From Bradyrhizobium sp. 132 (GTDB taxonomy: Bacteria; Pseudomonadota; Alphaproteobacteria; Rhizobiales; Xanthobacteraceae): DNA of 64,000 nt. The stretch is from assembly GCF_023074185.1 (NCBI RefSeq), contig NZ_JADPKY010000024.1, forward strand, positions 1 through 64,000, written 5' to 3'. The translations under genes were made by a program, and so were the position numbers. Under the pieces are notes generated by a model. The model ran no database searches and was not told the origin of the DNA. It worked only from the letters and a program-made list of their open reading frames with translations. Below, piece after piece: positions 1 through 34,526 of this stretch (position 1 is its first letter; each line of letters starts with the position of its first letter).

Positions 1-447
1 GCGGAGGGTTGGCTCTATGTGGCCGCAGTCGTTGATCTGTTCTCGCGGCGGGTGGTCGGCTGGTCAATGAGTACAGCAATGACGGCACAGCTCGTCACCG
101 ATGCCCTGGTGATGGCGATCTGGCGACGAGGCAAGCCGGACGCGCTGTTGCATCATTCCGATCGCGGCAGCCAATACACCAGCGAACAGTTCCAGAGGCT
201 GATGGCCGATCACGGCGTGGTCTGCTCGATGAGCCGGTCAGGCAATGTCTGGGACAACGCTGCAATGGAGAGCTTCTTCTCGTCCTTGAAGACCGAGCGA
301 ACAGCGCGCAAAGTGTACCGGTCACGCAACGAGGCCAAGGCCGACGTGTTCGACTACATCGAGCGCTTCTACAATCCGAAGCGAAGGCATTCGACGATCG
401 GATATCTGAGCCCTATGGAGTTCGAACGGAAGGTTGGATTAGCTTAA
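1..447 (+). CDS. IS3-family transposase OrfB, C-terminal part (5' end outside window)
   Basis: This is the C-terminal part of an IS3-family integrase-type (DDE, rve fold) transposase. The frame is open from base 1 and reads ..EGWLYVAAVVDLFSRRVVGW, so the true start lies upstream of the window. The second catalytic Asp is in HHSDRGSQYTSEQF. The final Glu is in DNAAMESFFSSLKTE, about 35 residues later, as the family expects. The C-terminus NPKRRHSTIGYLSP is also typical. OrfB is normally made by a programmed -1 frameshift from OrfA, which would lie left of the window. The copy looks intact where visible, so the element may be active. Confidence 0.95.
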   Translation, partial: AEGWLYVAAVVDLFSRRVVGWSMSTAMTAQLVTDALVMAIWRRGKPDALLHHSDRGSQYTSEQFQRLMADHGVVCSMSRSGNVWDNAAMESFFSSLKTERTARKVYRSRNEAKADVFDYIERFYNPKRRHSTIGYLSPMEFERKVGLA

Positions 448-450
448 GCC

Positions 451-477
451 GGTGTCAACAGAACCGGGTGCAGCTCA
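451..477 (-). repeat. Right terminal inverted repeat of the IS3 element
   Basis: The 27 bases next to the OrfB stop read, on the minus strand, TGAGCTGCACCCGGTTCTGT followed by TGACACC. This resembles terminal repeats of IS3-family elements, which start with TGA and contain CACCC and TTGACACC. The partner repeat is outside the window. Confidence 0.7.
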
Positions 478-18966: not shown

Positions 18967-20751
18967 TTGAGCAACGAGCGCGTGGAACGGCGACTGGCAG
19001 CGGTGCTGGCGGCGGATGTTGCGGGATATAGTCGGCTGATGGGGGCCGACGAAGAAGAGACGCTGGTCCGGCTAAAGGCTGTAAGGAAGGCCATCATTGA
19101 TCCCACCCTAGTCTCCCATCGAGGCCACATGGTCAAGACCACCGGTGATGGCATGCTGATCGAGTTTGCCAGCGCCGTCGATGCGGTGCGCGGTGCAGTT
19201 GAAATCCAGCGGAGTGTGGCTGAGCAGAATGCCGGCGTGCCGCCGGATCAAAAAATCGAATTCCGGATCGGCATCCATGTCGGTGATGTCATTTTCGATG
19301 ACAACGACATTTTCGGTGATGGCGTCAACATTGCCGCCCGCCTTGAGAGCATCGCCGAACCGGGCGGGGTCTGCATGTCTGATGATGCCTATCGACAGGT
19401 CCGGGGCAAAGTTGAAATTGCCTGTGATGACATGGGACAGCAGTCCCTCAAAAATATTGCTGAGCCAATGCGGGCGTGGCGGGTCCGGCCGTCTGGTCGG
19501 ACCCCTTCCGCAGTAAAATCAGGTTCGGCTGTGGGCCAGCCTCCGGCACTCTCGCATCCCGACAAGCCCTCCATCGCAGTGCTGTCGTTCCAAAACATGA
19601 GCGGCGATCCCGAGCAGGAATATTTCGCTGACGGGCTTACAGAAGATATCATAACCGAACTGGCCCATACCAGCACGATGTCGGTCATCGCCCGCCACTC
19701 GACGTTTGTCTACAAGGGCAAGGCGGTCGACGTGAAGCGGGTTGGACACGACCTGGGTACCAGGTACGTGCTTGAGGGCAGCGTCCGGCGCATGAACCAG
19801 CGTGTTCGTGTCACCGCGCAGCTAGTCGAGGCCGCAACGGGGCGTCACCTTTGGGCCGAGAAATACGACCGCGATCTCGCCGACATCTTTGAAATACAGG
19901 ACGAAATCACGCGCAGCGTCGTGGGCTCGACCCAATGTCAGGTTGTCTTTAGCGAAGGGGTTCTGGCTGAACGAAGCGAGAGACCGGATTTTCGCACCTG
20001 GGATCTCGCCAAGCGCGGATGGAAGGAAATTTACGGGCTGACGTCGGAAAGCATCGCAGCAGCGCGCGAGATCGCGAGCGAAGTCACGCGCATCGATCCA
20101 TCATTTGCAAAGGGTCATCAGCTTCTTGCTGCCGCGACATATCATTTGGCGCTGATGGGTTTTTCCAGCAATTCACGGGAAATGCTTGAGGCAGCTTTGC
20201 AGTCAGTCCAGAAAGCGATCCGGCTCGATGATGCCGACGAATATTCGCATTGGATGCTGGGCGGTATCCTGGGTCAGGGTTTTGGGTACCATGACAAGGC
20301 CATCGCGGCCTATCGCCGAGCCCTCGAGCTCAATCCAAATTTTTTGATTGCTTTTGGCAGTCTCGGCACCGTGCTTGCCCTCGCTGGACGGGTAGAAGAG
20401 AGTATCCGAAATTCTGAGACATGCATCAGGCTGAACCCGCGCGAACCTGGCAATTTTTTCCGCTTCTCTGGGCTTGCGCTGGCATATTTTGTTGCTCAGG
20501 ACTACGTGAAATCTCGCGAGTGGTCCGAAAAAGCCGTGCAACGTAAGCCAGACTGGTGGCAAGGCCATGCCCTTCTTGCCGTCAGCTGTGCACTGCTAGG
20601 CGAGCAAGATGACGCGCGCGCGGCCATTGGTGATTGGCTTCTCGCGATCCCGGGTGCCACCGTGAGCAATTTACCACCAATACCTTTCAGAAATACAACG
20701 GACGCGGAGCGTTTCCGAGACGGCCTTCGCAGGGCGGGTCTCCCCGAATGA
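18967..20751 (+). CDS. Class III adenylate/guanylate cyclase with TolB-like and TPR regions
   Basis: A 594-residue soluble protein. Residues 8-175 form the catalytic domain: AADVAGYSRLMGADEEE (first metal Asp), TTGDGMLIEFAS (second Asp), FGDGVNIAARLE. Residues 205-325 resemble the TolB-like N-terminal domain found in such cyclases (IAVLSFQNMSGDPEQEYFAD). The rest is a TPR array, for example AIAAYRRALELNPNFLIAFG. The enzyme would make cAMP or cGMP, with the TPRs sensing a partner. The start is TTG. Bradyrhizobium encodes many such enzymes; the signal for this one is unknown. Confidence 0.9.
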   Translation: MSNERVERRLAAVLAADVAGYSRLMGADEEETLVRLKAVRKAIIDPTLVSHRGHMVKTTGDGMLIEFASAVDAVRGAVEIQRSVAEQNAGVPPDQKIEFRIGIHVGDVIFDDNDIFGDGVNIAARLESIAEPGGVCMSDDAYRQVRGKVEIACDDMGQQSLKNIAEPMRAWRVRPSGRTPSAVKSGSAVGQPPALSHPDKPSIAVLSFQNMSGDPEQEYFADGLTEDIITELAHTSTMSVIARHSTFVYKGKAVDVKRVGHDLGTRYVLEGSVRRMNQRVRVTAQLVEAATGRHLWAEKYDRDLADIFEIQDEITRSVVGSTQCQVVFSEGVLAERSERPDFRTWDLAKRGWKEIYGLTSESIAAAREIASEVTRIDPSFAKGHQLLAAATYHLALMGFSSNSREMLEAALQSVQKAIRLDDADEYSHWMLGGILGQGFGYHDKAIAAYRRALELNPNFLIAFGSLGTVLALAGRVEESIRNSETCIRLNPREPGNFFRFSGLALAYFVAQDYVKSREWSEKAVQRKPDWWQGHALLAVSCALLGEQDDARAAIGDWLLAIPGATVSNLPPIPFRNTTDAERFRDGLRRAGLPE

Positions 20752-20793
20752 CGCAATGATCACCGACAGCTGGAATTGTGAAAGTCCGCTCAC

Positions 20794-20889
20794 GGCCCAT
20801 CGCTACCGTTGGGGCGGTGCTGCTACATGTCGGCTCAGAGGGGTAGACCGGAAGTTTGCAGTGGAGTGCTAGACCGACGCTTTTGGACC
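20794..20889. repeat. ~95-bp direct repeat, copy 2 (upstream of second cyclase)
   Basis: Second copy of the repeat described at 18791-18885, placed 110 bases before the ATG of the second cyclase. The two copies frame the first cyclase gene and so could recombine to delete it. Confidence 0.9.
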
Positions 20890-20998
20890 CTGACCGGAAA
20901 TGCAACGTCGCGGCGGGTGCTGGAATAAGTCGGCGCGCGTGGTAGACTTTCGGTCCTATCGGTCCAGAGTGGGTAACACAAAATCCGGAGGGGCCGCG

Positions 20999-23900
20999 AT
21001 GCAGCAAATTGCCCACTGGCTCCAAAAGCTCGGAATGTCCGAGTACGCGCAGCGTTTTGCTGAAAACGGGATTGGTTTCGCAGCACTTCGCCATCTGACC
21101 GATCAGGATCTTAAGGACATCGGCGTGCTGCTCGGGCATCGGCGCATAATGCTTGCGGCTATCCAGGAGCTTGGGAGCCCTGCCGTAGCTCAACGCGTTA
21201 CGGCCGAGTTGACGCCCCAAGATGCCGCCGAACGTCGCCAAGTCACTGTGATGTTCTCGGACCTTGTGGGTTCAACAGCACTTTCAGCACGCATGGACCC
21301 TGAAGACCTACGCGAGATCATTTCCGCGTATCAGAAGTGCGTCACCGACATCGTGCGGCGGTTCGGCGGCTTTGTTGCGAAGTATATGGGCGATGGGGTA
21401 CTGGTGTATTTCGGGTATCCGCAGGCGCACGAAGACGATGCGGAACGGGCCGTCCGGGCGGGGCTGGAGTTGGTGGCTGGCGTAGGTGCTCTGAAGATCC
21501 GTGCGCCCCTGCAGACGCGTATCGGCATCGCAACGGGACTGGTGGTTGTCGGCGACCTCATCGGGTCCGGCGCTTCTCAGGAGCACGCCATAATCGGTGA
21601 AACGCCAAACCTTGCGGCACGTTTGCAGGGCATTGCTGAGCCGAACAGCGTCGTCATTGCGGAGAGTACTCGGAAGCTGTTGGGCAATCTGTTCGAGCTT
21701 GAAGAACTTGGGCCGAAAGAGCTCAAAGGTATCTCAGGCGCCGTAGGGGCATGGGCTGCGTTGCGGCCGGCTTCAGTCGAAAGCCGCTTCGAGGCCTTGC
21801 ACGCGAACGGATTGACCGAGCTTGTTGGGCGCGACGAAGAACTCGAACTCCTGTTGCGACGCTGGTCCAAGGCAAAGAGTGGTGAAGGCCAAGTAGTGCT
21901 GCTCTCCGGCGAGGCTGGTATTGGCAAATCGCGGCTTACGGCGGCGCTGCTGGAAAGCATCGCTAACGAGCCGCATACCCGATTGCGCTATTTCTGCTCG
22001 CCGCAGCATACCGACAGCGCTTTTTATCCGATCATCGGCCAGATGGAACGGGCCGCACGATTTGCGCATGACGACGCGCTGGAAACGAAGCTGGACAAGC
22101 TCGATACAGTATTGGCACAGACTTCAACCTCTTTGGAGGATATGGCGCTATTCGCCGACATGCTGTCGCTGCCAAAAGACGGACGCTACGCGGCGCTCGA
22201 CATACCCTTCGAACAGCACCGCCAGCGGACATTTGAAGCGCTCGGGTCACAGGTGGAGGCATTGTCGCGCTCCACACCTGTGCTAATGATCGTCGAGGAT
22301 GCACATTGGACCGATCCCACGAGTCAGGAAGCTTTCAGCGGGGTCGTTGACCGGCTTCGGACCTACCGTGTGCTGTTGATTGTGACGTTCCGTCCAGAGT
22401 TCGAACCGCACTGGATCGGGCGGCACTACGTCACTGCTCTCACCCTCAATCGGCTGGCGCAGCGCCAAATCGAGACGGTGATTGATCACATTGTGGGCAA
22501 CCAGCTTATTTCGGCGAGCGTGCGGCAGGACATCATTGAGCGCACGGACGGGATTCCCCTTTTTGTGGAGGAGATGACGAAGGCGGTGCTGGAGACCAAG
22601 AGCGAGGGCGAAGCGCGGCGAACTACAAGCAATATTCCGTCACCTGCGTCGGCGGTCCCCGCAAGCCTGCACGCCTCGCTTATGGCGAGGCTCGACCAGC
22701 TCGGGCCCGCCAAGGAGGTGGCCCAGATCGGTTCCGCGATCGGGCGAGAGTTCTCTCACACCCTGCTTTTTTCCGTTGCGAGCAAGCCGGAGCCAGAGTT
22801 GGCATCCGCCTTAGACCGTCTGATCTCCGCTGGCTTGTTGTTCCGACAAGGTGTGCCTCCGTATTCCAGCTATCTATTCAAGCACGCGCTGGTGCAGGAC
22901 GCTGCCTATGGCACGCTGCTGCGCCCAAGACGGCAAGAGTTGCATGCACGAGTTGCCACCACGTTGGAGCAGCATTTCGCAGATCTGGTCGATCGCCAGC
23001 CAGAGATACTGGCCCATCATTTGACGGGTGCCGGACAGGCGGAACGAGCCTCTGATCAATGGCTAAAAGCGGGCCAGTTTGCAGCTTCCCGCTCCGCGTA
23101 TGCCGAGGCGGTCAGTCATTTCGATCGTGGTCTGTTCCTGCTGCCATCTCTCTTGGATGCGCAGCGCGATCAGCAAGAGATCAAGCTGCAACTCGCTAAA
23201 GGCGTGTCTCTTAGTAACGCCAACGGCTTCTCCTCAGCCGAAGCAGCAAAAGCGCACGCTCGTGCGCTCGAGCTTTCCGATAAGATAGGGGACATCGATT
23301 CTCAGTTCACCGCGATATGGGGGTTGTGGACTTTCCGACGTACGTCGGATTGGAATGCGGCGCGCCAGCTTTCAGATAGGCTCCTGAGCCTGGTCGAAAA
23401 GAGTAATAATGTCGGCCTTCGGCTCGAAGCTCATCATACGGGTTGGACAACACATTTCTTCTGCGGCGAGCTCGCTCCGGCGCAGGAGCATTGCGATAAG
23501 GGCCGAACCCTTTATGAGTTCGAGCAGCACCGGACGCATGCACACATCTACGGCCACGACCCTGGAGTCTGTGCAGGAACGCTAGGTGCCTGGAGCGCCT
23601 GGCTGCTCGGCTACCCTGACACGGCGCTCGCTCGCGTGAATGACGCGTTGGAGCTTGCGAAACGGGTGAACCATCCCTTCAGCCTTGCTATGGCGCGTCT
23701 GCATGCGTCGATATTGCACCAGTTCCGGCGTGACTCAGCTTCGGTGCTGCAGTGCATTGAGAGCGCAGAGACCCTAGCGGCTGAGAAGCGCATTGCCTTG
23801 CCGCTCGATCCACAAGTTCTCCGCGGCTGGGCGTTGTTGGCACCGGAGAGGATTGAGGCGGCGATTGCCTCCTACCGCGCCGCGCTTGCTGATCCGGCGA

Positions 23901-24319
23901 AGCGAGGCACGATCCAGTACGCTCCCTATAGCTTTGCGCTCTTTTGCGAAGTGCTTTGTCACACAGGAAACCACCCCGGCGGAGCCGAAGCCCTGACGGG
24001 TGCTGCTGCCATTGCGGAACAAAGCGGCGAGCACTGGTGGGATGCGGAAATCTCTCGGCTGCGAGGGTTGGTGGCATTATCTCGAGGCCAGCTCGGAGGG
24101 AGCAAATGGCTGCTGAAGTCCCTACAAACCGCTCGGCAACAACGGGCGAAATCACTTGAGCTCCGGGCAGCGACGAGCCTTGCCCGCTTATGGCGCGATG
24201 AGGGCAAAGGCACCGCGGCACGTGATCTGCTGGCTCCGGTTTACGGCTGGTTCACTGAAGGGTTCGACACGCTCGATTTGAAAGAGGCCAAGGCGTTGCT
24301 CGACGACTTGGCCTCGTGA
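20999..24319 (+). CDS. SAM-domain / class III cyclase / AAA-ATPase / TPR signalling protein
   Basis: A protein of 1106 residues. Residues about 1-60 form a SAM domain (IAHWLQKLGMSEYAQRFAEN). Residues 80-250 form a class III cyclase domain (VMFSDLVGSTALSARMD, KYMGDGVLVYFGYP, ETPNLAARL). From about 270 there is an AAA-type ATPase with Walker A GEAGIGKS (about 303) and Walker B VLMIVEDAHWTDP. The C-terminal half is TPR-like. The layout is a STAND-like sensor: the ATPase/TPR part probably controls the cyclase. GGAGGGG precedes the ATG at 20999, preferred over the frame start at 20900. Confidence 0.92.
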   Translation: MQQIAHWLQKLGMSEYAQRFAENGIGFAALRHLTDQDLKDIGVLLGHRRIMLAAIQELGSPAVAQRVTAELTPQDAAERRQVTVMFSDLVGSTALSARMDPEDLREIISAYQKCVTDIVRRFGGFVAKYMGDGVLVYFGYPQAHEDDAERAVRAGLELVAGVGALKIRAPLQTRIGIATGLVVVGDLIGSGASQEHAIIGETPNLAARLQGIAEPNSVVIAESTRKLLGNLFELEELGPKELKGISGAVGAWAALRPASVESRFEALHANGLTELVGRDEELELLLRRWSKAKSGEGQVVLLSGEAGIGKSRLTAALLESIANEPHTRLRYFCSPQHTDSAFYPIIGQMERAARFAHDDALETKLDKLDTVLAQTSTSLEDMALFADMLSLPKDGRYAALDIPFEQHRQRTFEALGSQVEALSRSTPVLMIVEDAHWTDPTSQEAFSGVVDRLRTYRVLLIVTFRPEFEPHWIGRHYVTALTLNRLAQRQIETVIDHIVGNQLISASVRQDIIERTDGIPLFVEEMTKAVLETKSEGEARRTTSNIPSPASAVPASLHASLMARLDQLGPAKEVAQIGSAIGREFSHTLLFSVASKPEPELASALDRLISAGLLFRQGVPPYSSYLFKHALVQDAAYGTLLRPRRQELHARVATTLEQHFADLVDRQPEILAHHLTGAGQAERASDQWLKAGQFAASRSAYAEAVSHFDRGLFLLPSLLDAQRDQQEIKLQLAKGVSLSNANGFSSAEAAKAHARALELSDKIGDIDSQFTAIWGLWTFRRTSDWNAARQLSDRLLSLVEKSNNVGLRLEAHHTGWTTHFFCGELAPAQEHCDKGRTLYEFEQHRTHAHIYGHDPGVCAGTLGAWSAWLLGYPDTALARVNDALELAKRVNHPFSLAMARLHASILHQFRRDSASVLQCIESAETLAAEKRIALPLDPQVLRGWALLAPERIEAAIASYRAALADPAKRGTIQYAPYSFALFCEVLCHTGNHPGGAEALTGAAAIAEQSGEHWWDAEISRLRGLVALSRGQLGGSKWLLKSLQTARQQRAKSLELRAATSLARLWRDEGKGTAARDLLAPVYGWFTEGFDTLDLKEAKALLDDLAS

Positions 24320-26673: not shown

Positions 26674-26868
26674 CTATCGGGTGCCGTCCTGCGCTCCGTT
26701 CTTTCCCTCATAATTCTTCACGCTTTCAGGGGGAACCAGAGAAATATTGCTTAGGACTATGCGCAGCGAATATTTCTCTTCATCCATACCACCAAATTCG
26801 ATGGTTGATGTGCGCGCACGCCCATCAAAGGCCCTGTTGCTGATGTTGCATATTTCAACTGCATTCAC
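26674..26868 (-). CDS. Short hypothetical protein next to the integrated element (doubtful)
   Basis: A 64-residue frame, MNAVEICNISNRAFDGRART..GGMDEEKYSLRIVLSNISLV, in DNA of lower GC than its surroundings. The composition is more protein-like than chance. No family and no clear ribosome-binding site were found. It could be element cargo. Confidence 0.35.
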   Translation of the reverse strand: MNAVEICNISNRAFDGRARTSTIEFGGMDEEKYSLRIVLSNISLVPPESVKNYEGKNGAQDGTR

Positions 26869-27121
26869 GTCGAGCAGACAAATCTCGCGCTGCCTGTTTC
26901 GGATCGCATCTCTTTGATAAGAGAAATAAAAAGCTAGTATGGCTCACGCACCAATGAGGGCACGATCGGCGCTTATTACCGCCGATAGGCGTAGGGCTAC
27001 ACAATGCGCTTAGGCGTTATCTCGGGCGAGGGAACGTCTCGGGCTCGGGCGCCTTCCATTGATGCAACGGAACACTGATTGCTGTTAGCAGCGATAGCGG
27101 GCGCCAGAGGGGGTGGGGCAT

Positions 27122-27239
27122 TGACCCACGCTACTTTGCTCAGTCTCTATATGAAGTGAAAAAAGGAAATATCACTCACTTTGCTTTTTTTTCTCTCTCC
27201 ATAGAGAATAACCGCTTTTAGCGTGGGCAGCGTGGGTCA
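27122..27239. repeat. 11-bp inverted repeat framing an AT-rich segment
   Basis: TGACCCACGCT (27122-27132) is matched by its exact reverse complement AGCGTGGGTCA (27229-27239), which overlaps the primase stop. A third partial copy, AGCGTGGGCA, abuts the right arm (27220-27229). The segment between is very AT-rich and holds the smaller pair AAGTGA / TCACTT. It could be a replication origin, a terminator or an end of the element. The rest of the 26869-27236 gap shows no gene. Confidence 0.75.
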
Positions 27240-30074
27240 GCCAAAGTCGAGAAGGCGCCCGTTTCTGATTGCGATATCTCGGTCATCCGCCTCCCGGAAG
27301 TCCACGTCAAGCTTATAAACTTCTTGGAGCATGCCCGTTGCGTCGCGCAATCGGCGGCCGAAGATGTGCAGTCCGCCCGGCCATCGTTCGTCCGACGTGG
27401 GGCCATCGTCTTCGAAGTCGTGAAGCTTTTCGAGCGCGGCGTTCAGCGATTTAGCGGTGCCAGTCCACGACTCCTTATCCGCCATGAACTCGATTAGGGT
27501 CCGTGCGACCGGCGAGCGCATTAGCAGTTTCGACTTTGCGACCGCGCGCATGCCCATGAAGACCCGCTGAAACGTTCCCTGTCGCCACAGGTAGGGTTCG
27601 CATGCCGTCAGCCATCGTTCGAAGTCGGCCAGTCGGGTTGCTGCGCCCGTCTCGGCGACCAAAGGCAATTTGCGCAATCCGTGCGCAACCATGTTGAACA
27701 GGCCGGACAGCACGACCGGCAACGCGTCGTTGAACTCCCGCTTGACCATTGCCTCGGTCTTCTTCGTCGTGATCTTCCGGAGTGATACCATCAACGCACG
27801 GTCTAGAAGGTCGTTGCGTCTCAGCATGTCCGAATGCAGCCCATTGAGCATGATGGGGTTGCGTGCCTTCATCAGGAACTCTTCGGCGTCGGTGAAAAGC
27901 TCTCGCTTCGACAAACCGCCCCCCGTCGCCAGCCGGCAAAGCGCGTCGGAAAACCAAGGCGGGATGCGTGACAGGTTGTCGTAAAGCTGGACATACGCCG
28001 ATTGCGCCGCCACGAACAAATCTAGTTCGCTCGACGGCATCGAACGAGACGGCGCGAACGACGGGTCAATGACGGATCGAATCAGGTCACAGGTGGTTGA
28101 CTTGGCTGTCCCCGCGCCGCCATCGATGGTGAGAATCGGATAAGGTCCGTTGGTGAAGCACGATAGCAGCCAGCAAACCGCAAGCACGAACCCGGAGTCC
28201 TCAATGCTTGGCACGTTACCATCTGCCTTGATGGTCAGAATGCTGCGCAAGATGCTTAGGTCGCCTTCTTGTAAATCCGCCGGAATCGGCAATGGTTGCA
28301 TCCCGGCGCTACGCGTGAAGCGAAAAGACTTCGGCAACTGGCTCGACGAGTTGACTTCCCAGCCGTTGGCGGTGATTTTCACGAACTGCCGTGCGTCGTT
28401 GCACAGATCGATGTAAACGGCGTTGCTGATGGGCGCGATGCGCCTGAAGCTTGGAATGACCGGCGCGCCTTCGTGCTTGCACGATGCGATCAGGACTCGC
28501 TTCAGATCTCTCAACACCGGATCGGACGCGGTCATGCCACGTAGTGAGTAAAGACGATAAGCAAGCCACTCATCGAACTCTTTGCTCGCAACCGACATGC
28601 ACTTAACGACACCGTCTGTCGTGACTTGGGCGAACACGCTGCCGTCAGACTGCATCGACAGGTCGGCTTCAGTGCCGACGATCCGCTGTAGCAGGCTCAT
28701 CGGGGTTTCGGCCGCTTTCTTGGCGGACTTCTTCGGTCGTGCGCGGCGGACCTCCATAGAGAGGGCCGTAAGTTGTTTGAATCCAATTCCCCTGAGTTTC
28801 TGGAGCCACGTGTGCAGCTCCTCAGGCGTTAGCTGCGCGAGGGCAGTTAACGCAGACTCTTCAAACGGGGCAGCCGGATTCGTCTTCGCGCGCCGCAAGA
28901 TACCGTCGAGCGAGCTACTATCGCCATTTAGCCAAGCGTCTGGATCTCCTTCGCCGTTAGGCATATCCGGATCGTCGCTGAAGTCGTCATCGACCGAGCC
29001 GGCCAAAACTGGGATCAGGTTGCGTTTGCCCGCCATGCTCAAGAGTTTGAACAAATGCAAGTGGGTCACCGGGTCTTCGTGACCAATGCCGAAGGACTGC
29101 CACTTCAAGTCCAGCTCTTCGTCGTTGAAGAACTCTTCGTCGGCTGCGGACCAGTTACGCCAAACGTCGTCACCCATGCCGTCCGTGGCGTAGTGCACGG
29201 CCATGCCGATAGTGAGCCAGGATTCATAATCGCGGAAGTCCTCCGGGTCGAGGCCGGATAGCATCCGCGCAACCTGTTCGTTGGTCAGGATTCCCGCGCT
29301 CGGATGCTCGGTGCGATGCCGCTTGGGACGGGTAAGGAACGCGAGCACATTGGGCGGAAGTTCAGGCAGGCCTTCTTCCACGTCAGGATGCGTCTCGTCC
29401 CATTCGTACATCCGGCCGGTCGTCGGATGAAGCGATCCCGGCGATACAAGCTGACGGCCGACGCACACGGGCTCAAGGCCGGGGAAGCCGTCGTCGGCGA
29501 GGCTCTTCTTCAGCTTCACCCCCTTCGGGATTCTGAAGAGTAGATGGCCACCAGCGCCCGTGCCGCCGCCGCTGATAGCCCGCGGATACTTGGAAGGATC
29601 GAAGCTTGGGAAACGCTTACACAGCTTCTTGAGCGACTTGAGCCCGCCGGAGCGCTCGTCCACATCAAGCCCGCCAACGCCATCGGCAATGCGGTAACCC
29701 ATATTTTGGAAGTTTGCATAGCAATCGGCGATCACCGTCTTTGAGTCATAGTGCATCCGGGGCCAATTCGCATCAACTGGCGCCTTGCCCATTTCACGCA
29801 CCTTGCCAATTCGCTTGTCAGTGCGTGTCGCGAACGGATGGTGCAGGGTGATGGGCGAAAAGCCTGCCGCCACCGTTTTCTGAAATTGTTCGAAGGTGTC
29901 AGCTTGGAATTTCTTCGGTTTGGTTGCTTTGCCATTATGGACAGCGTTGGTCATACTCACGGCGTCACTCCACTTGTCAGTATCTAGCGTCTCGCGCGCT
30001 GTGCATTCGTGCGGAGAGGTTTCTGTTCGCGATAGGCAGTACACACTGCCGGATTGGGTACGAGGCGTTTTCAT
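27237..30074 (-). CDS. Bifunctional primase-polymerase / helicase replication protein
   Basis: A protein of 945 residues. The N-terminal prim-pol domain (about 60-250) shows GVGGLDVDERSGG (catalytic Asp137, Asp139), GAGGHLLFRIP (His177) and GRQLVSPGS. A PriCT-like helical domain follows (about 262-350: DPEDFRDYESWLTIGMAVHY). The C-terminal ATPase has Walker A DGGAGTAKST (651-660), Walker B-like YVQLYDN, sensor NPIMLNGL and an arginine motif RNDLLDRAL. It would prime and unwind the element during replication. Its ATG overlaps the stop of the HTH gene (ATGA), indicating coupled translation and supporting this start. Confidence 0.88.
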   Translation of the reverse strand: MKTPRTQSGSVYCLSRTETSPHECTARETLDTDKWSDAVSMTNAVHNGKATKPKKFQADTFEQFQKTVAAGFSPITLHHPFATRTDKRIGKVREMGKAPVDANWPRMHYDSKTVIADCYANFQNMGYRIADGVGGLDVDERSGGLKSLKKLCKRFPSFDPSKYPRAISGGGTGAGGHLLFRIPKGVKLKKSLADDGFPGLEPVCVGRQLVSPGSLHPTTGRMYEWDETHPDVEEGLPELPPNVLAFLTRPKRHRTEHPSAGILTNEQVARMLSGLDPEDFRDYESWLTIGMAVHYATDGMGDDVWRNWSAADEEFFNDEELDLKWQSFGIGHEDPVTHLHLFKLLSMAGKRNLIPVLAGSVDDDFSDDPDMPNGEGDPDAWLNGDSSSLDGILRRAKTNPAAPFEESALTALAQLTPEELHTWLQKLRGIGFKQLTALSMEVRRARPKKSAKKAAETPMSLLQRIVGTEADLSMQSDGSVFAQVTTDGVVKCMSVASKEFDEWLAYRLYSLRGMTASDPVLRDLKRVLIASCKHEGAPVIPSFRRIAPISNAVYIDLCNDARQFVKITANGWEVNSSSQLPKSFRFTRSAGMQPLPIPADLQEGDLSILRSILTIKADGNVPSIEDSGFVLAVCWLLSCFTNGPYPILTIDGGAGTAKSTTCDLIRSVIDPSFAPSRSMPSSELDLFVAAQSAYVQLYDNLSRIPPWFSDALCRLATGGGLSKRELFTDAEEFLMKARNPIMLNGLHSDMLRRNDLLDRALMVSLRKITTKKTEAMVKREFNDALPVVLSGLFNMVAHGLRKLPLVAETGAATRLADFERWLTACEPYLWRQGTFQRVFMGMRAVAKSKLLMRSPVARTLIEFMADKESWTGTAKSLNAALEKLHDFEDDGPTSDERWPGGLHIFGRRLRDATGMLQEVYKLDVDFREADDRDIAIRNGRLLDFG

Positions 30075-30289
30075 ATCGCGCGGCGATCTTGATAATCGCG
30101 AAATGCGTCGGCGGTGATGCGTCGCGAGCGACCGGCCTTAAAGCTCTTAAGAGCGCCAGATTTGAGAATGAGCCAGAACGTAGACATTGCCACGCCGAGC
30201 GCTTCTGCGACTTGTTCGGGCGTATGGCAAATTTGGCCGGGTGGAATCGGCGCGATTCGAGGTTGCTTGAGTTTGGGAGGCTTACGCAT
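30071..30289 (-). CDS. Small helix-turn-helix protein (AlpA/excisionase-like)
   Basis: A 72-residue protein. The helix-turn-helix region is HTPEQVAEALGVAMSTFWLI, and the wing is LKSFKAGRSRRITADAFRDY. This matches the HTH_17/excisionase type in which a small DNA-binding protein accompanies a tyrosine integrase and controls excision or integrase expression. The start MRKPPKLKQPRIAP is chosen over a longer Pro/Arg-rich frame. The gene is coupled to the primase gene by an ATGA overlap. Confidence 0.8.
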   Translation of the reverse strand: MRKPPKLKQPRIAPIPPGQICHTPEQVAEALGVAMSTFWLILKSGALKSFKAGRSRRITADAFRDYQDRRAI

Positions 30290-30506
30290 AACAAGACCCA
30301 CGCGCCTCAAGGGCGTCGCTTGAGTTCGCGATGGAATTTGTCCACCCAATGAGAGGGGCGGCCATCCGCGACGGTCTCGCTGTGGGCTTATTTCAGCCCC
30401 GGCTTTCGTCTCTTCAGGGCGGCCCGTAGCCGCGCCCTGCGTCTTCAACGACTGGCATTTGCGAAAATAGTTCGGACGAACTCGGAGTCAACCCGGAAAA
30501 GGAGCG

Positions 30507-31745
30507 TTAACCATCTTTGGCCGAGTCAAGATAATCGGCCCAATCCTGCATCAACGGACGGCGCGGCTCGACGTAGGGGCTTCTGTCATATGCCGCTTCC
30601 GACTCGGTCTTGAACACGTGCGCCAAGGCGGCTTCCGACAAACGCCATTCATATTTAGTTTGTTCGGCGCGCCACTTGCTGAACGAAGATCGCATGCCGT
30701 GGGCAGTTCCGTCCGCGATGCGCTGTAAGGTGTGCGCCATCGCGTTGTGGCCAATCATCTGTCCAGCCTTCTCGCCCTCGAAGATCAGGTCATTAGGATC
30801 GGCATCGATTGGAATGATGTCCTTCAAGAGCTTTATGGCTTGGCGCGACAATGGGACCACGTGATCTGGCGCTTTCACGGTCTTCCCGTTTTTTAAAACG
30901 ATTTCCTTCACCTTCAGGCGCGCGACCGGAATCGTCCACGTTTTCTTCGAGAAGTCGATTTCGCGCACGCGGGCCGCCCTGCATTCGGTCGGCCGGACGG
31001 CGCAGAGGGTGGCGAGGTCAAGCGCGCGCGCCGCTGCGCGATTCTTAGTTCGGAGGGTACGCATAACGCCCGGCAATTCGGCGTACGGCACCGAGTCGTG
31101 ATGTTTGACGGGCTGCGTTACGTCGGGCAACAGATGCTGAAGCACGTGCCAGTCTGCTGGGTTTGGTGCGTCCTCGGCGATGTAGTCCTTCGCACGCGCG
31201 TAGTTGAAGATCGTTTCGATCCGAAAGCGTAGGTCATTCGCAGTGCGGTTGACGTCCTGCCAAATCGGTTCCAGCACAGTGATGACGTGCGTCTTCGTGA
31301 TCGCCCGGACGTCCATCTTCAAGAGCTTTGCAGCGTGGCGCTCGATGCTGCTCTTCGCGTCGCGGACGGTCTTTGGGATAACTTCCTTCTCATAGACGTT
31401 CTTGAACCACTCGGTCATGACCTGCTCGAAGGACCGGCCTTCGATGGGAACGACGACCGGCGACACTCCCAACTGTCCGGCGGTACGGAGGCGCCGCTTG
31501 TCTTCGGCGGCGTCGCGGGCTTCGACTAGAGACATGCCCGCCTTGCCGGGACCGACAGCCGGGCCGATGCTGATTTCGTGACGTTTACCTTTGTTGTGCA
31601 AGATGACGATCCACGACCGCGCAGTGGCGCTGCGGACGTGTAGGAACAGCCCTCCGCCGTCGCTGTAGCGGCCCTGGTCAAGGTGTTTCATGACGTCGGT
31701 CGCTTTAAGGATATGCAGGGTCACGGCGGCCGGCTCCGTTTTCAA
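30507..31745 (-). CDS. Tyrosine recombinase, P4-type integrase
   Basis: A 412-residue protein. The N-terminal domain (YSDGGGLFLHVRSATARSWI) is the arm-binding type of P4-like integrases (DUF4102). The catalytic residues are complete: Arg251 in AVRPTECR, His349-x-x-Arg352 in AHGMRSSF, His377 in ALAHVF, and Tyr386 in AAYDRS. The reaction is site-specific recombination between element and chromosome. Its start is 370 bases from the next chromosomal gene, so the attachment site is probably in that gap. The lack of a tRNA there is unusual for this family. Confidence 0.93.
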   Translation of the reverse strand: MKTEPAAVTLHILKATDVMKHLDQGRYSDGGGLFLHVRSATARSWIVILHNKGKRHEISIGPAVGPGKAGMSLVEARDAAEDKRRLRTAGQLGVSPVVVPIEGRSFEQVMTEWFKNVYEKEVIPKTVRDAKSSIERHAAKLLKMDVRAITKTHVITVLEPIWQDVNRTANDLRFRIETIFNYARAKDYIAEDAPNPADWHVLQHLLPDVTQPVKHHDSVPYAELPGVMRTLRTKNRAAARALDLATLCAVRPTECRAARVREIDFSKKTWTIPVARLKVKEIVLKNGKTVKAPDHVVPLSRQAIKLLKDIIPIDADPNDLIFEGEKAGQMIGHNAMAHTLQRIADGTAHGMRSSFSKWRAEQTKYEWRLSEAALAHVFKTESEAAYDRSPYVEPRRPLMQDWADYLDSAKDG

Positions 31746-31892
31746 CAGTCGCGCCCCTCGTTATGCCCCAAGGCCAACGTCGGAGATAGCCGGATGAAGA
31801 CGGACTTGCCCGGAGGGTAAATTTGCCGGAAAGCGCTATTTGCGTCGAGGATTGGCCCCTAAGCGCTTGAACCAACTGGAAGAAAAAAGTAA

Positions 31893-31921
31893 GGCGCGAC
31901 TGGCATCACCACAGTCGCGCC
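31893..31921. terminator. Hairpin with perfect 10-bp stem
   Basis: GGCGCGACTG pairs exactly with CAGTCGCGCC around a 9-base loop. On the minus strand the A-rich run to its left would read as Ts (ACTTTTTTC), so it could terminate transcription entering the integrase region or coming from the right. Confidence 0.6.
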
Positions 31922-31966
31922 CTACGTCGCCGGCTTATGGGGCAGGGGGGAATAGCCGGCTGTTGA

Positions 31967-31992
31967 AACGACTCCCCGCCGCCGGAGTCGTT
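31967..31992. repeat. Second hairpin, 9-bp perfect stem
   Basis: AACGACTCC pairs exactly with GGAGTCGTT around the loop CCGCCGCC. It may be a terminator or an integrase arm-type site. Nothing distinguishes these from sequence alone. Confidence 0.55.
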
Positions 31993-32053
31993 CCAGGCGG
32001 TTGCGAAATTTTTTGCCAGCGTCCTGCACACGGTTAAGTGATCTTAACGATTG

Positions 32054-32114: not shown

Positions 32115-32528
32115 ATGTCACAGATTCAAAAGGTATTTTTGGGCGCCGTCGCGATTGCCGCAACGCTCGGCGCCGTCCAGGTGGGCGCAGTGCAGCTGGC
32201 CTCCGGCCATGATCTGGCCGACCGCTGGCAGGCTGTTGCAGACAAGCCGGGCCATAACGTCAATCGTTCCAGCAAAGCCGACCGGCTGCCCGATATCAAG
32301 CAGGCGGGGGTCCCGACCCGCACTGTGTCGATGCGGCTGAACGACCTGGCTGACACGTCGGTGCTGCTGCGCATCCCCGCGGTGATCGAGACCGGCAATG
32401 CCAAGCCGCCGGTGCTGCTCCCGAACCAGAAGCAGAGCCGCAAAAAGCCGACGATTGCCTGCGAGCCGATGGTCAGCTCCCTGACCGAGGTCGCAAAGCT
32501 GCTCCAGCCCGGCCGCTGTGTGACCTGA
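32115..32528 (+). CDS. Exported hypothetical protein, 137 aa
   Basis: Residues about 5-26 (VFLGAVAIAATLGAVQVGAV) form a signal peptide or membrane anchor. The mature part is polar, with two Cys near the end (IACEPMVSSL and PGRCVT) that could form a disulphide. Similar proteins occur in Bradyrhizobium without known function. The gene is followed by a hairpin terminator and then htpG, so it is its own unit. A possible EcfG promoter precedes it. Confidence 0.75.
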   Translation: MSQIQKVFLGAVAIAATLGAVQVGAVQLASGHDLADRWQAVADKPGHNVNRSSKADRLPDIKQAGVPTRTVSMRLNDLADTSVLLRIPAVIETGNAKPPVLLPNQKQSRKKPTIACEPMVSSLTEVAKLLQPGRCVT

Positions 32529-32648: not shown

Positions 32649-34526
32649 ATGACGACGTCAGACACGGCTGTGCATACGCAGCCCTTCCAGGCCGAGGTTT
32701 CCGAGCTTTTGCACCTGATGGTGCACTCCGTCTATTCCGAGACCGACATCTTCCTGCGCGAGCTCGTCTCCAACGCATCGGACGCCTGTGACAAGCTGCG
32801 CTATGAAGCCATCGCCGGTCCGGCGCTGCTGGGCGAGGGCGACGTTCTCAAGATTCGTATCATTCCGAACAAGACCGCGGGGATGTTGACGATCGCCGAC
32901 AATGGTATCGGCATGGAGCGGCAGGAGCTGATCGACCATCTCGGCACCATCGCCCGTTCCGGCACCAAGGCCTTCGTGTCGAAGCTCAAGGAAGCCAAGG
33001 ACGGCCTCGGCCTGATCGGCCAATTCGGCGTCGGCTTCTATTCCGCCTTCATGGTCGCCGACAAGATCGTCGTCGTCAGCCGCCGTGCCGGCGAGAGCGA
33101 CGTGTGGACCTGGACGTCCTCCGGCGGCTCCGGCTTCGAGATTGCGCGCGCAAGCGACGAGGAAGCGGTGCGCTTGGCACGCGGCACCGAGATCGTCCTG
33201 CACCTCAAAGACGACGCGAAGAAGTATCTTGAGACTTACGAGATCGAGCGCATCGTCGGCGCCTATTCCGACAACATCCTGTTCCCGATCGAGCTGGTGC
33301 CGGAAGAGGGCGAGCCGCGCCAGATCAATTCCGCGAGCGCGCTGTGGCAGCGCTCCAAGTCCGAGCTGACAGCCGAGGACTACAAGAAGGCGTATCAGCA
33401 GATCGCATCCGCCTTCGACGATCCCGCGATGACGCTGCACTACCGCGCCGAAGGCCGCTATTCCTACGCCGTGCTGCTGTTCGCGCCGTCGACGAAACCG
33501 TTCGACCTGTTCGAGCCCTCGCGTAAAGGTCGCGTCAAGCTCTATGTCCGCCGCGTCTTCATCACGGATGACGCCGATCTGTTGCCGGGCTATCTGCGCT
33601 TCATCCGCGGCGTCGTCGACAGCGAGGATCTTCCGCTGAACATCTCGCGCGAGATGCTGCAGAACAATCCGCAGCTCGTGCAGATCCGTAAAGCGGTGGC
33701 GACGCGTGTGGTAAACGAACTCGAAAGCCTTGCCGACAAGGACCCGGAGAACTTTGCGAAGATCTGGGAGGCCTTCGGCGCGGTGCTGAAGGAAGGTATC
33801 TACGAGGATTTCGAGCGCCGTGAAAAGCTGCTCGCGCTGTCGCGTTTCACCACGACTTCGGGCGAGAAGCGCTCGCTCAAGGACGTCATCGCCGATTTCA
33901 AGCCGAACCAGACCGAGATCTATTATCTCGTCGGCGACAGCATCGAGCGGCTGAAGTCGAGCCCCCGGCTCGAGGCGGCGACAGCGCGCGGCATCGAAGT
34001 GCTGCTGCTTTCCGATCCGGTCGACGCCTTCTGGACCTCGATGCCATCGGAGTTCGAGGGCAAACCGCTGAAGTCGCTGAGCCAGGGCGACCTCAACCTC
34101 GACCTGATTTCGCGCGTCGACGAGGCGGACGAGGCGAAGAAGGACGAGCCGGCCGCCGACGAGGCCGCCACTATCGCCGTGATCAAGGCCGCGCTGGGCG
34201 AGCGCGTCAGCGACGTCAAGGCCTCGACGCGCCTCACCAGCTCCGCCTCCTGCCTCGTCGCCGACAGCCAGGGCCCGAGCCGCGAGCTCGAGCGCATCCT
34301 GGCGCAGCAGAACCGCGGCATGCGCACCAAGCCGATCCTCGAGATCAATCTGCGCCATGCGCTGGTCACGGCGATCACGAAGGCTCAGGCCGGCTCGAAG
34401 CTGGTCGATGACCTCAGCCTGCTCCTGCTCGAACAGGCGCAGATCATGGATGGCGAACTGCCGGAAGACCCTGCGGCGTTTGCGGCGAGGTTGAACCGGC
34501 TGGTGTTGCAGGGGCTCGGCGGATAG
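32649..34526 (+). CDS. htpG: Molecular chaperone HtpG (bacterial Hsp90)
   Basis: A 625-residue protein of normal family length. The N-terminal GHKL ATPase shows [16 protein letters not shown] (catalytic Glu), DNGIGM and [16 protein letters not shown]. The middle domain includes [18 protein letters not shown], and the C-terminal dimer domain is present. It folds and protects client proteins in the cytoplasm using ATP. It is transcribed alone, with terminators on its left and the convergent RND gene on its right. No clear heat-shock promoter was recognised in the short upstream gap. Confidence 0.97.

Follow-up and report, generated by a model that had tools for sequence, protein, structure and literature searches.

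We analysed a 64,000-nucleotide stretch of Bradyrhizobium sp. 132 (assembly GCF_023074185.1, positions 1 to 64,000 of contig NZ_JADPKY010000024.1; hereafter the window), in which genes for an integrase, a small helix-turn-helix (HTH) protein and a primase-helicase lie side by side. A reading of the sequence alone had taken them for a minimal integrated replicon at 26674-32040, possibly a satellite using helper functions in trans. With a probability that we put at roughly 70%, the three genes instead form a core for integration, excision and replication that occupies the right end of a satellite-related chromosomal island of at least 34.8 kb. On our best reading, this core belongs to a satellite lineage whose packaging gene was lost and which expanded into an island carrying cargo.

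Ends and content of the probable island

When 60 genomes of the genus were searched at the DNA level, homology to the right flank began abruptly at window position 31881 in many genomes, and a 40-bp copy of this right-end point was found on another contig of the same genome (C154:2922-2961). Here a 36-bp repeat at 31885-31920 (plus strand), which we take as attR, is identical to C154:2957-2922, taken as attL, the sole other copy found in this genome; the same 36 bp flank an island in another genome, G142. A SnoaL_4 gene lies beyond the C154 copy, on its outer side. The first chromosomal open reading frame (ORF) right of the site occupies 32115-32528 (plus strand, 137 amino acids), and from its sequence we take an ORF at 32649 to be htpG-like. 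The two outer flanks were joined and compared with 19 genomes; they aligned unbroken in 14 (at 15 of 20 loci, because one place occurs twice), which identifies these as empty sites. Among the five non-spanning loci, that of genome G021 (L033) is occupied, and the other four have different DNA on the left. Comparison with insert-free relatives, which the sequence-only reading had proposed, accordingly supplied both att repeats and empty sites, and it moved the boundaries: the right end lies at the 31885-31920 repeat, the left end lies outside the window, and the size enclosed is far from minimal. GC content is 0.574 in the window part (1-31880) and 0.540 in the C154 part (1-2921), and 0.642 in both flanks.

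The window starts at the beginning of its contig (C31), within a multicopy insertion sequence (IS) whose right end, with an rve transposase domain, occupies positions 1-470 (plus strand); C154 starts within the opposite (left) end of a similar IS. Most simply, the pieces would run from attL through the C154 part, the IS and the window part to attR, and the unit that the two repeats bound, at least 34.8 kb long, would most likely be a genomic island.

Besides the core, the bracketed unit comprises more than 25 kb of other gene-bearing DNA. The interior within the window (471-26670) encodes DUF72, DUF892 and HAD_SAK_2 proteins, an ATP-dependent DNA ligase, SRAP, two cyclases, DUF1254/1214, an ABC substrate-binding protein and dodecin, which we read as stress and repair cargo. 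In relatives, matches to this cargo are dispersed and span one gene or a pair of genes at a time. On the C154 part lie genes for LmuA (E 8.1e-48), LmuC (E 2.6e-9) and a piece of LmuB (E 7.7e-31) that covers profile positions 1-105 of 611 and then runs into the IS, and Pfam agreed for two of the three proteins (ABC-3C CTD7 and MC3). Lamassu systems comprise LmuA, LmuB and, optionally, LmuC. From these matches, the far end of the island is predicted to hold a Lamassu-type defence system, either cut by the IS here or continued on another contig. The earlier statement that cargo and known defence genes are missing holds inside 26674-32040, but not for the island as a whole, with its LmuA, LmuC and truncated LmuB. 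General family scans of the window and C154 proteins, covering a subset of the ORFs of a possibly incomplete island, returned no relaxase or conjugation genes. Two cyclase-domain genes stand in tandem at 18967-24319, and DNA resembling the first is also found within the G142 island.

The core genes and their probable RNA-gene target

ORFs and domain families bear out the reading of three intact genes that point the same way, all on the minus strand. The integrase (30507-31745, 412 amino acids, TTG start) is a tyrosine recombinase with Arm-DNA-bind_3, Phage_int_M and Phage_integrase domains, and comparison with its nearest relative gave nonsynonymous and synonymous divergences (dN and dS) of 0.091 and 1.088, indicating purifying selection. 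The small Xis/AlpA-like HTH_17 protein (30071-30448; 125 amino acids as listed, with a true start that may lie further inside the listed ORF) scored 30 bits against HTH_17 in Pfam (cut-off 27), and 24.8 bits against the TIGR01764 excise model of NCBIfam, under its cut-off of 28.8. Its stop overlaps the primase start in an ATGA at 30074-30071, again as had been read. The third gene (27237-30074, 945 amino acids) encodes a primase-polymerase (PrimPol), PriCT_2 and superfamily 3 (SF3)/AAA+-type helicase protein. A 64-amino-acid ORF at 26674 gained no support from family scans.

Pfam assigns the Prim-Pol and PriCT_2 families to the N-terminal part of the 945-residue protein, and both the D-x-D and histidine of PrimPol and the Walker A and downstream motifs of the helicase half are kept across homologues. 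Its C-terminal 505 residues matched nothing in Pfam at E ≤ 1 or in NCBIfam at E ≤ 0.1. An AlphaFold2 model of this half, built from 52 sequences (predicted local distance difference test 88.5, predicted template modelling score 0.88), found its best structural match in the primase-helicase of SaPI5 (PDB 7ola; Foldseek E 8.4e-9; Z 16.3 over 381 aligned residues with a root-mean-square deviation of 4.6), followed by poxvirus D5-type helicases, and Cch of SCCmec (5dgk) also ranked high. The modelled fold thus bears out the primase-helicase label at fold level. The SaPI5 and Cch proteins share this helicase fold at about 10% sequence identity but, unlike them, the helicase here is fused to PrimPol and PriCT_2. 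Queried at full length, the protein had no relative in the genome-contig and viral-contig collections, had a full-length match only in the home genome among 146 genomes searched, and gave nothing credible in a PDB sequence search. A profile of the C-terminal half did find relatives in genome contigs and viral contigs, and this helicase family is widespread. In ten homologues of the helicase half that we scanned, the head was PrimPol with PriCT_2 in two, PrimPol alone in two, a weak, sub-cut-off Toprim-like domain in two and without an N-terminal family in four; positions 27240-28754 (minus strand) encode a member of an SF3/AAA+-type helicase family that lacks a Pfam match and is fused to varied primase heads across phyla.

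The integration site is a dyad followed by a T-run on the minus strand, and from alignment, folding and covariation we read it as the probable terminator of a conserved RNA gene at 31879-31997 (minus strand). An alignment of 42 sequences gave three hairpins; over 29 pairs, 98.9% of cells pair, and nine pairs changed on both sides. None of 500 shuffles reached the observed covariation, a count that is not to be taken as a probability, and slid controls pair at 28-48%. Because most of the sequences belong to one of two groups, part of the double changes reflects single events scored many times over. The window copy folds with a z of -5.23, and the attR copy retains the hairpin and T-run. Within the family, the RNA model found matches in 65 of 198 genomes, spread over 14 of 47 genera, its own among them. 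Rfam returned nothing at the gathering score, and a small RNA (sRNA) match seen at a lax threshold (15.9 bits, with 48 needed) was sub-threshold and was not used. The RNA may equal a published rhizobial sRNA, BjrC/BjsR being the candidates considered.

In the mechanism that we propose, the integrase would recombine the two 36-bp repeats and the small HTH protein would set the direction, as an excisionase; PrimPol would prime and the fused hexameric helicase unwind, so that the excised circle is copied. Integration would leave the terminator hairpin and T-run at the 3' end of the RNA, much as tRNA genes are restored by elements that target them.

Of 265 genomes, 142 contain a two-mismatch att pattern, and 16 of these have two occurrences. 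A second integrase type adjoins the left-end att motif at ten loci (truncated in G123), and an eleventh locus (G041) has it without a recognised motif. Elements with type-B integrases lie right of the same SnoaL_4 gene (L047-L049 and L065-L069, from G017, G007, G047 and G064). At these loci the right flank of the site is found elsewhere, inverted in the three genomes that have both on one contig and on another contig in G007.

A probable link to phage satellites

Integrase relatives at E ≤ 1e-60, with up to six candidates scored per genome, were present in 20 of 265 genomes including the home genome: 84% identical in G142, 58% in G021 and 34-40% in the other 17. The G142 island, with the same 36-bp repeats, measures 53.1 kb, and the G021 element 14.1 kb, with 19-bp repeats. 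In both, the HTH protein adjoins the integrase (61% identity in G142; 65 and 74% for two frames in G021). The replication protein of G142 combines RepB_primase, PriCT_2 and AAA_25, and G021 has a relative of it, in two frames. Since integrase and HTH protein are shared and the replication proteins differ from that of the window, the pair appears to stay together while the replication gene is exchanged. The HTH and replication genes of G021 (L044/L045) each run across two frames, which decay, frameshifting or a sequencing error would explain.

Among the proteins of the G021 element are a terminase small subunit (terS; phrog_57, E 2.3e-13) and an HNH-like protein. Nine of its ORFs were scanned (seven against PHROGs, five against Pfam, three against both), none of which was recognised as a capsid gene. 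This content marks it as resembling a phage-inducible chromosomal island (PICI) and makes a helper-dependent ancestor plausible; by descent, the window island would be related to this 14.1-kb, terS-bearing satellite. Relatives of terS at E ≤ 1e-10 occurred in five of 257 genomes including G021. In G062, G186 and G082 (L319-L324), direct repeats bracket terS; they are 48, 47 and 38 bp long and stand 13.9, 14.1 and 14.5 kb apart, respectively; one repeat copy overlaps a tRNA-Thr gene, and an integrase-like ORF stands at the far end (by weak tblastn matches in two and by eye in G082). The fifth genome, G229, matches at 38-39%. The backbone of G021 recurs in the three tRNA-Thr elements, with p272, p138, p100 and the HNH-type protein in all, and p315 and p133 in G062 and G186. 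The primases encoded by the G082 and G186 elements share 34-35% identity with the N-terminal half of the window primase; that of G062 gave a weak N-half match only and is nearer the G142 type.

These compact, PICI-like elements carry defence-like cargo in two of three cases: DarT/DarG-like genes in G062 and PDC-S60-like and RmrA-like genes in G082, two proteins of G186 having been scanned with no defence match. The G142 island has Septu PtuA/PtuB at a distance of 12-16 kb from its attL, and SAVED/HNH-like and caspase-helicase genes are closer to that end. The position of defence-like cargo away from the integrase side (Lamassu here, Septu in G142, DarT/DarG-like genes in G062) counts in favour of a satellite-related island.

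For the copy in this genome, gene content most likely predicts an element able to excise and replicate and unable to direct its own packaging, which could spread only with the aid of a helper phage, by generalized transduction or through some other carrier. We detected no terS match at E 1e-10 in this genome, and no portal of PF04860, the single portal family looked for. Dependence on a helper in trans, as the sequence-only reading suggested, is therefore plausible for an ancestor, through terS of G021, but for this copy it would be carried over by analogy from that element. We infer that the island is a single unit, that integrase and HTH protein excise it, that the PrimPol-helicase replicates it and that packaging was lost.

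Several observations weigh against a single, satellite-derived island. The putative join between C154 and C31 passes through the IS. Target-duplication evidence for it is ambiguous: a 3-bp AAT fits both sides if the IS ends are chosen in one way, but A follows each of the seven right ends of the IS that were found, so this A is likelier internal to the IS and, with A so counted, none of the seven right ends matches the left flank. The one window ORF tested after the IS was not LmuB. Loose clusters of the same cargo genes exist elsewhere in relatives (among the matches listed, at 1.03 and 1.11 Mb in G002, on C48 of G023 and on C1 of G029), and the interior could therefore be a later insertion. 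The replication gene is unlike those of G021 and G142, so the proposed lineage link rests on integrase, HTH protein and site. A search for the nine G021 proteins, with terS among them, gave no match (E ≤ 0.01) in either the window or the C154 portion of the island, or in G142, and among the other same-site elements compared the sole terS-like trace was a weak one in G188 (23%, 7e-9). Finally, the island is larger than the 13.9-14.5 kb of the terS elements.

Comparison with described families places the island near several; the literature drawn on in this work comprises the papers cited here and PMC5862659, PMC5082802 and PMC4842269. Like PICIs (PMC6092414), it has its own integrase, a specific site, an AlpA/xis-type small HTH protein and a primase-helicase, with no capsid genes recognised; terS, present in some PICIs, is matched in the same-site relative G021 and was not found in this genome at E 1e-10. 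It differs in lacking compactness by the yardstick of the terS elements, if the two repeats bound one unit, and in its RNA-terminator site and rhizobial host. The phage-inducible chromosomal minimalist islands (PICMIs) of Vibrionaceae (PMC10803314) share the int-alpA-prim core, the lack of capsid remodelling genes and the defence cargo, and their AlpA hidden Markov model includes HTH_17. However, they sit at fis rather than between a SnoaL_4 gene and a 137-residue ORF, their primase is DUF3987/DUF5906 whereas only Prim-Pol and PriCT_2 were found here at E ≤ 1, the ATGA overlap is at int rather than between HTH and primase genes, and the present island is larger and from another taxon. Site and primase family led us to reject PICMI membership. 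P4-like satellites (PMC8628076) also combine an integrase, an AlpA-like regulator, a primase-helicase and a defence hotspot, but the family as described there is from Enterobacterales. The P4 group is marked by psu, sid, delta and epsilon; four window proteins were scanned against PHROGs. The idea of an integrative element with satellite-type functions is upheld by terS of G021 at the same site, and membership of the P4 group is not. The bipartite symbiosis integrative and conjugative elements of Bradyrhizobium (PMC9174649, PMC9239051) resemble the type-B loci in their integrase-bordered pieces and large inversions around att. Their sites are tRNA-Val and near ybgC, whereas no tRNA was found within 80 kb of type-B elements in 16 stretches from four genomes.

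Alternative origins and significance

The most serious alternative, though an unlikely one, is that the core comes from an integrative plasmid or mobilizable island unrelated to satellites, terS of G021 being a later pick-up. The C-terminal half of the primase does resemble plasmid proteins of Methanothrix, Methylobacterium and Streptomyces at about 27-34% (20 of 29 matches listed), and the occurrence of its family in genomes and viral contigs also suits this origin. However, the same integrase-HTH pair is present in the terS element of G021, the primases of G082 and G186 that are related through the N-terminal half also accompany terS, and the scanned proteins included no relaxase. We give still less weight to a genuinely minimal element of 5 kb that was inserted in tandem next to an older island and has since lost its inner att. 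The GC dip to 0.483 at 26.7-27.0 kb would fit a boundary there, as would adjoining cargo that is common genus DNA found elsewhere, but a search of the window with two short att patterns (≤ 3 mismatches) gave no further att copy except the site's own dyad arm, and G142, with the closest integrase, is also a large island. A domesticated chromosomal locus, the outcome by which the sequence-only reading would have been refuted, is highly improbable: the integrase is under purifying selection, but the position is empty in most relatives examined, an integrase at ≥ 58% identity occurs in only three of 265 genomes, home included, and a full-length primase match was obtained in the home genome only, of 146 searched.

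Returning to the satellite-related island, we tentatively propose a history, somewhat short of an even chance, in which a satellite lineage dropped its packaging module and swapped its replication gene, and in which integrase, Xis and primase-helicase now serve large defence and stress islands at an RNA terminator; G021 (satellite) and G142 and the present genome (islands) would be snapshots of it. In the part of the literature that we covered, we found no published satellite work on Bradyrhizobium. If our reading is true, one integrase-HTH core at one site joins phage satellites and large defence islands, and the terminator of an RNA gene family would be an integration hotspot for two integrase types, offering a way to predict where islands land.

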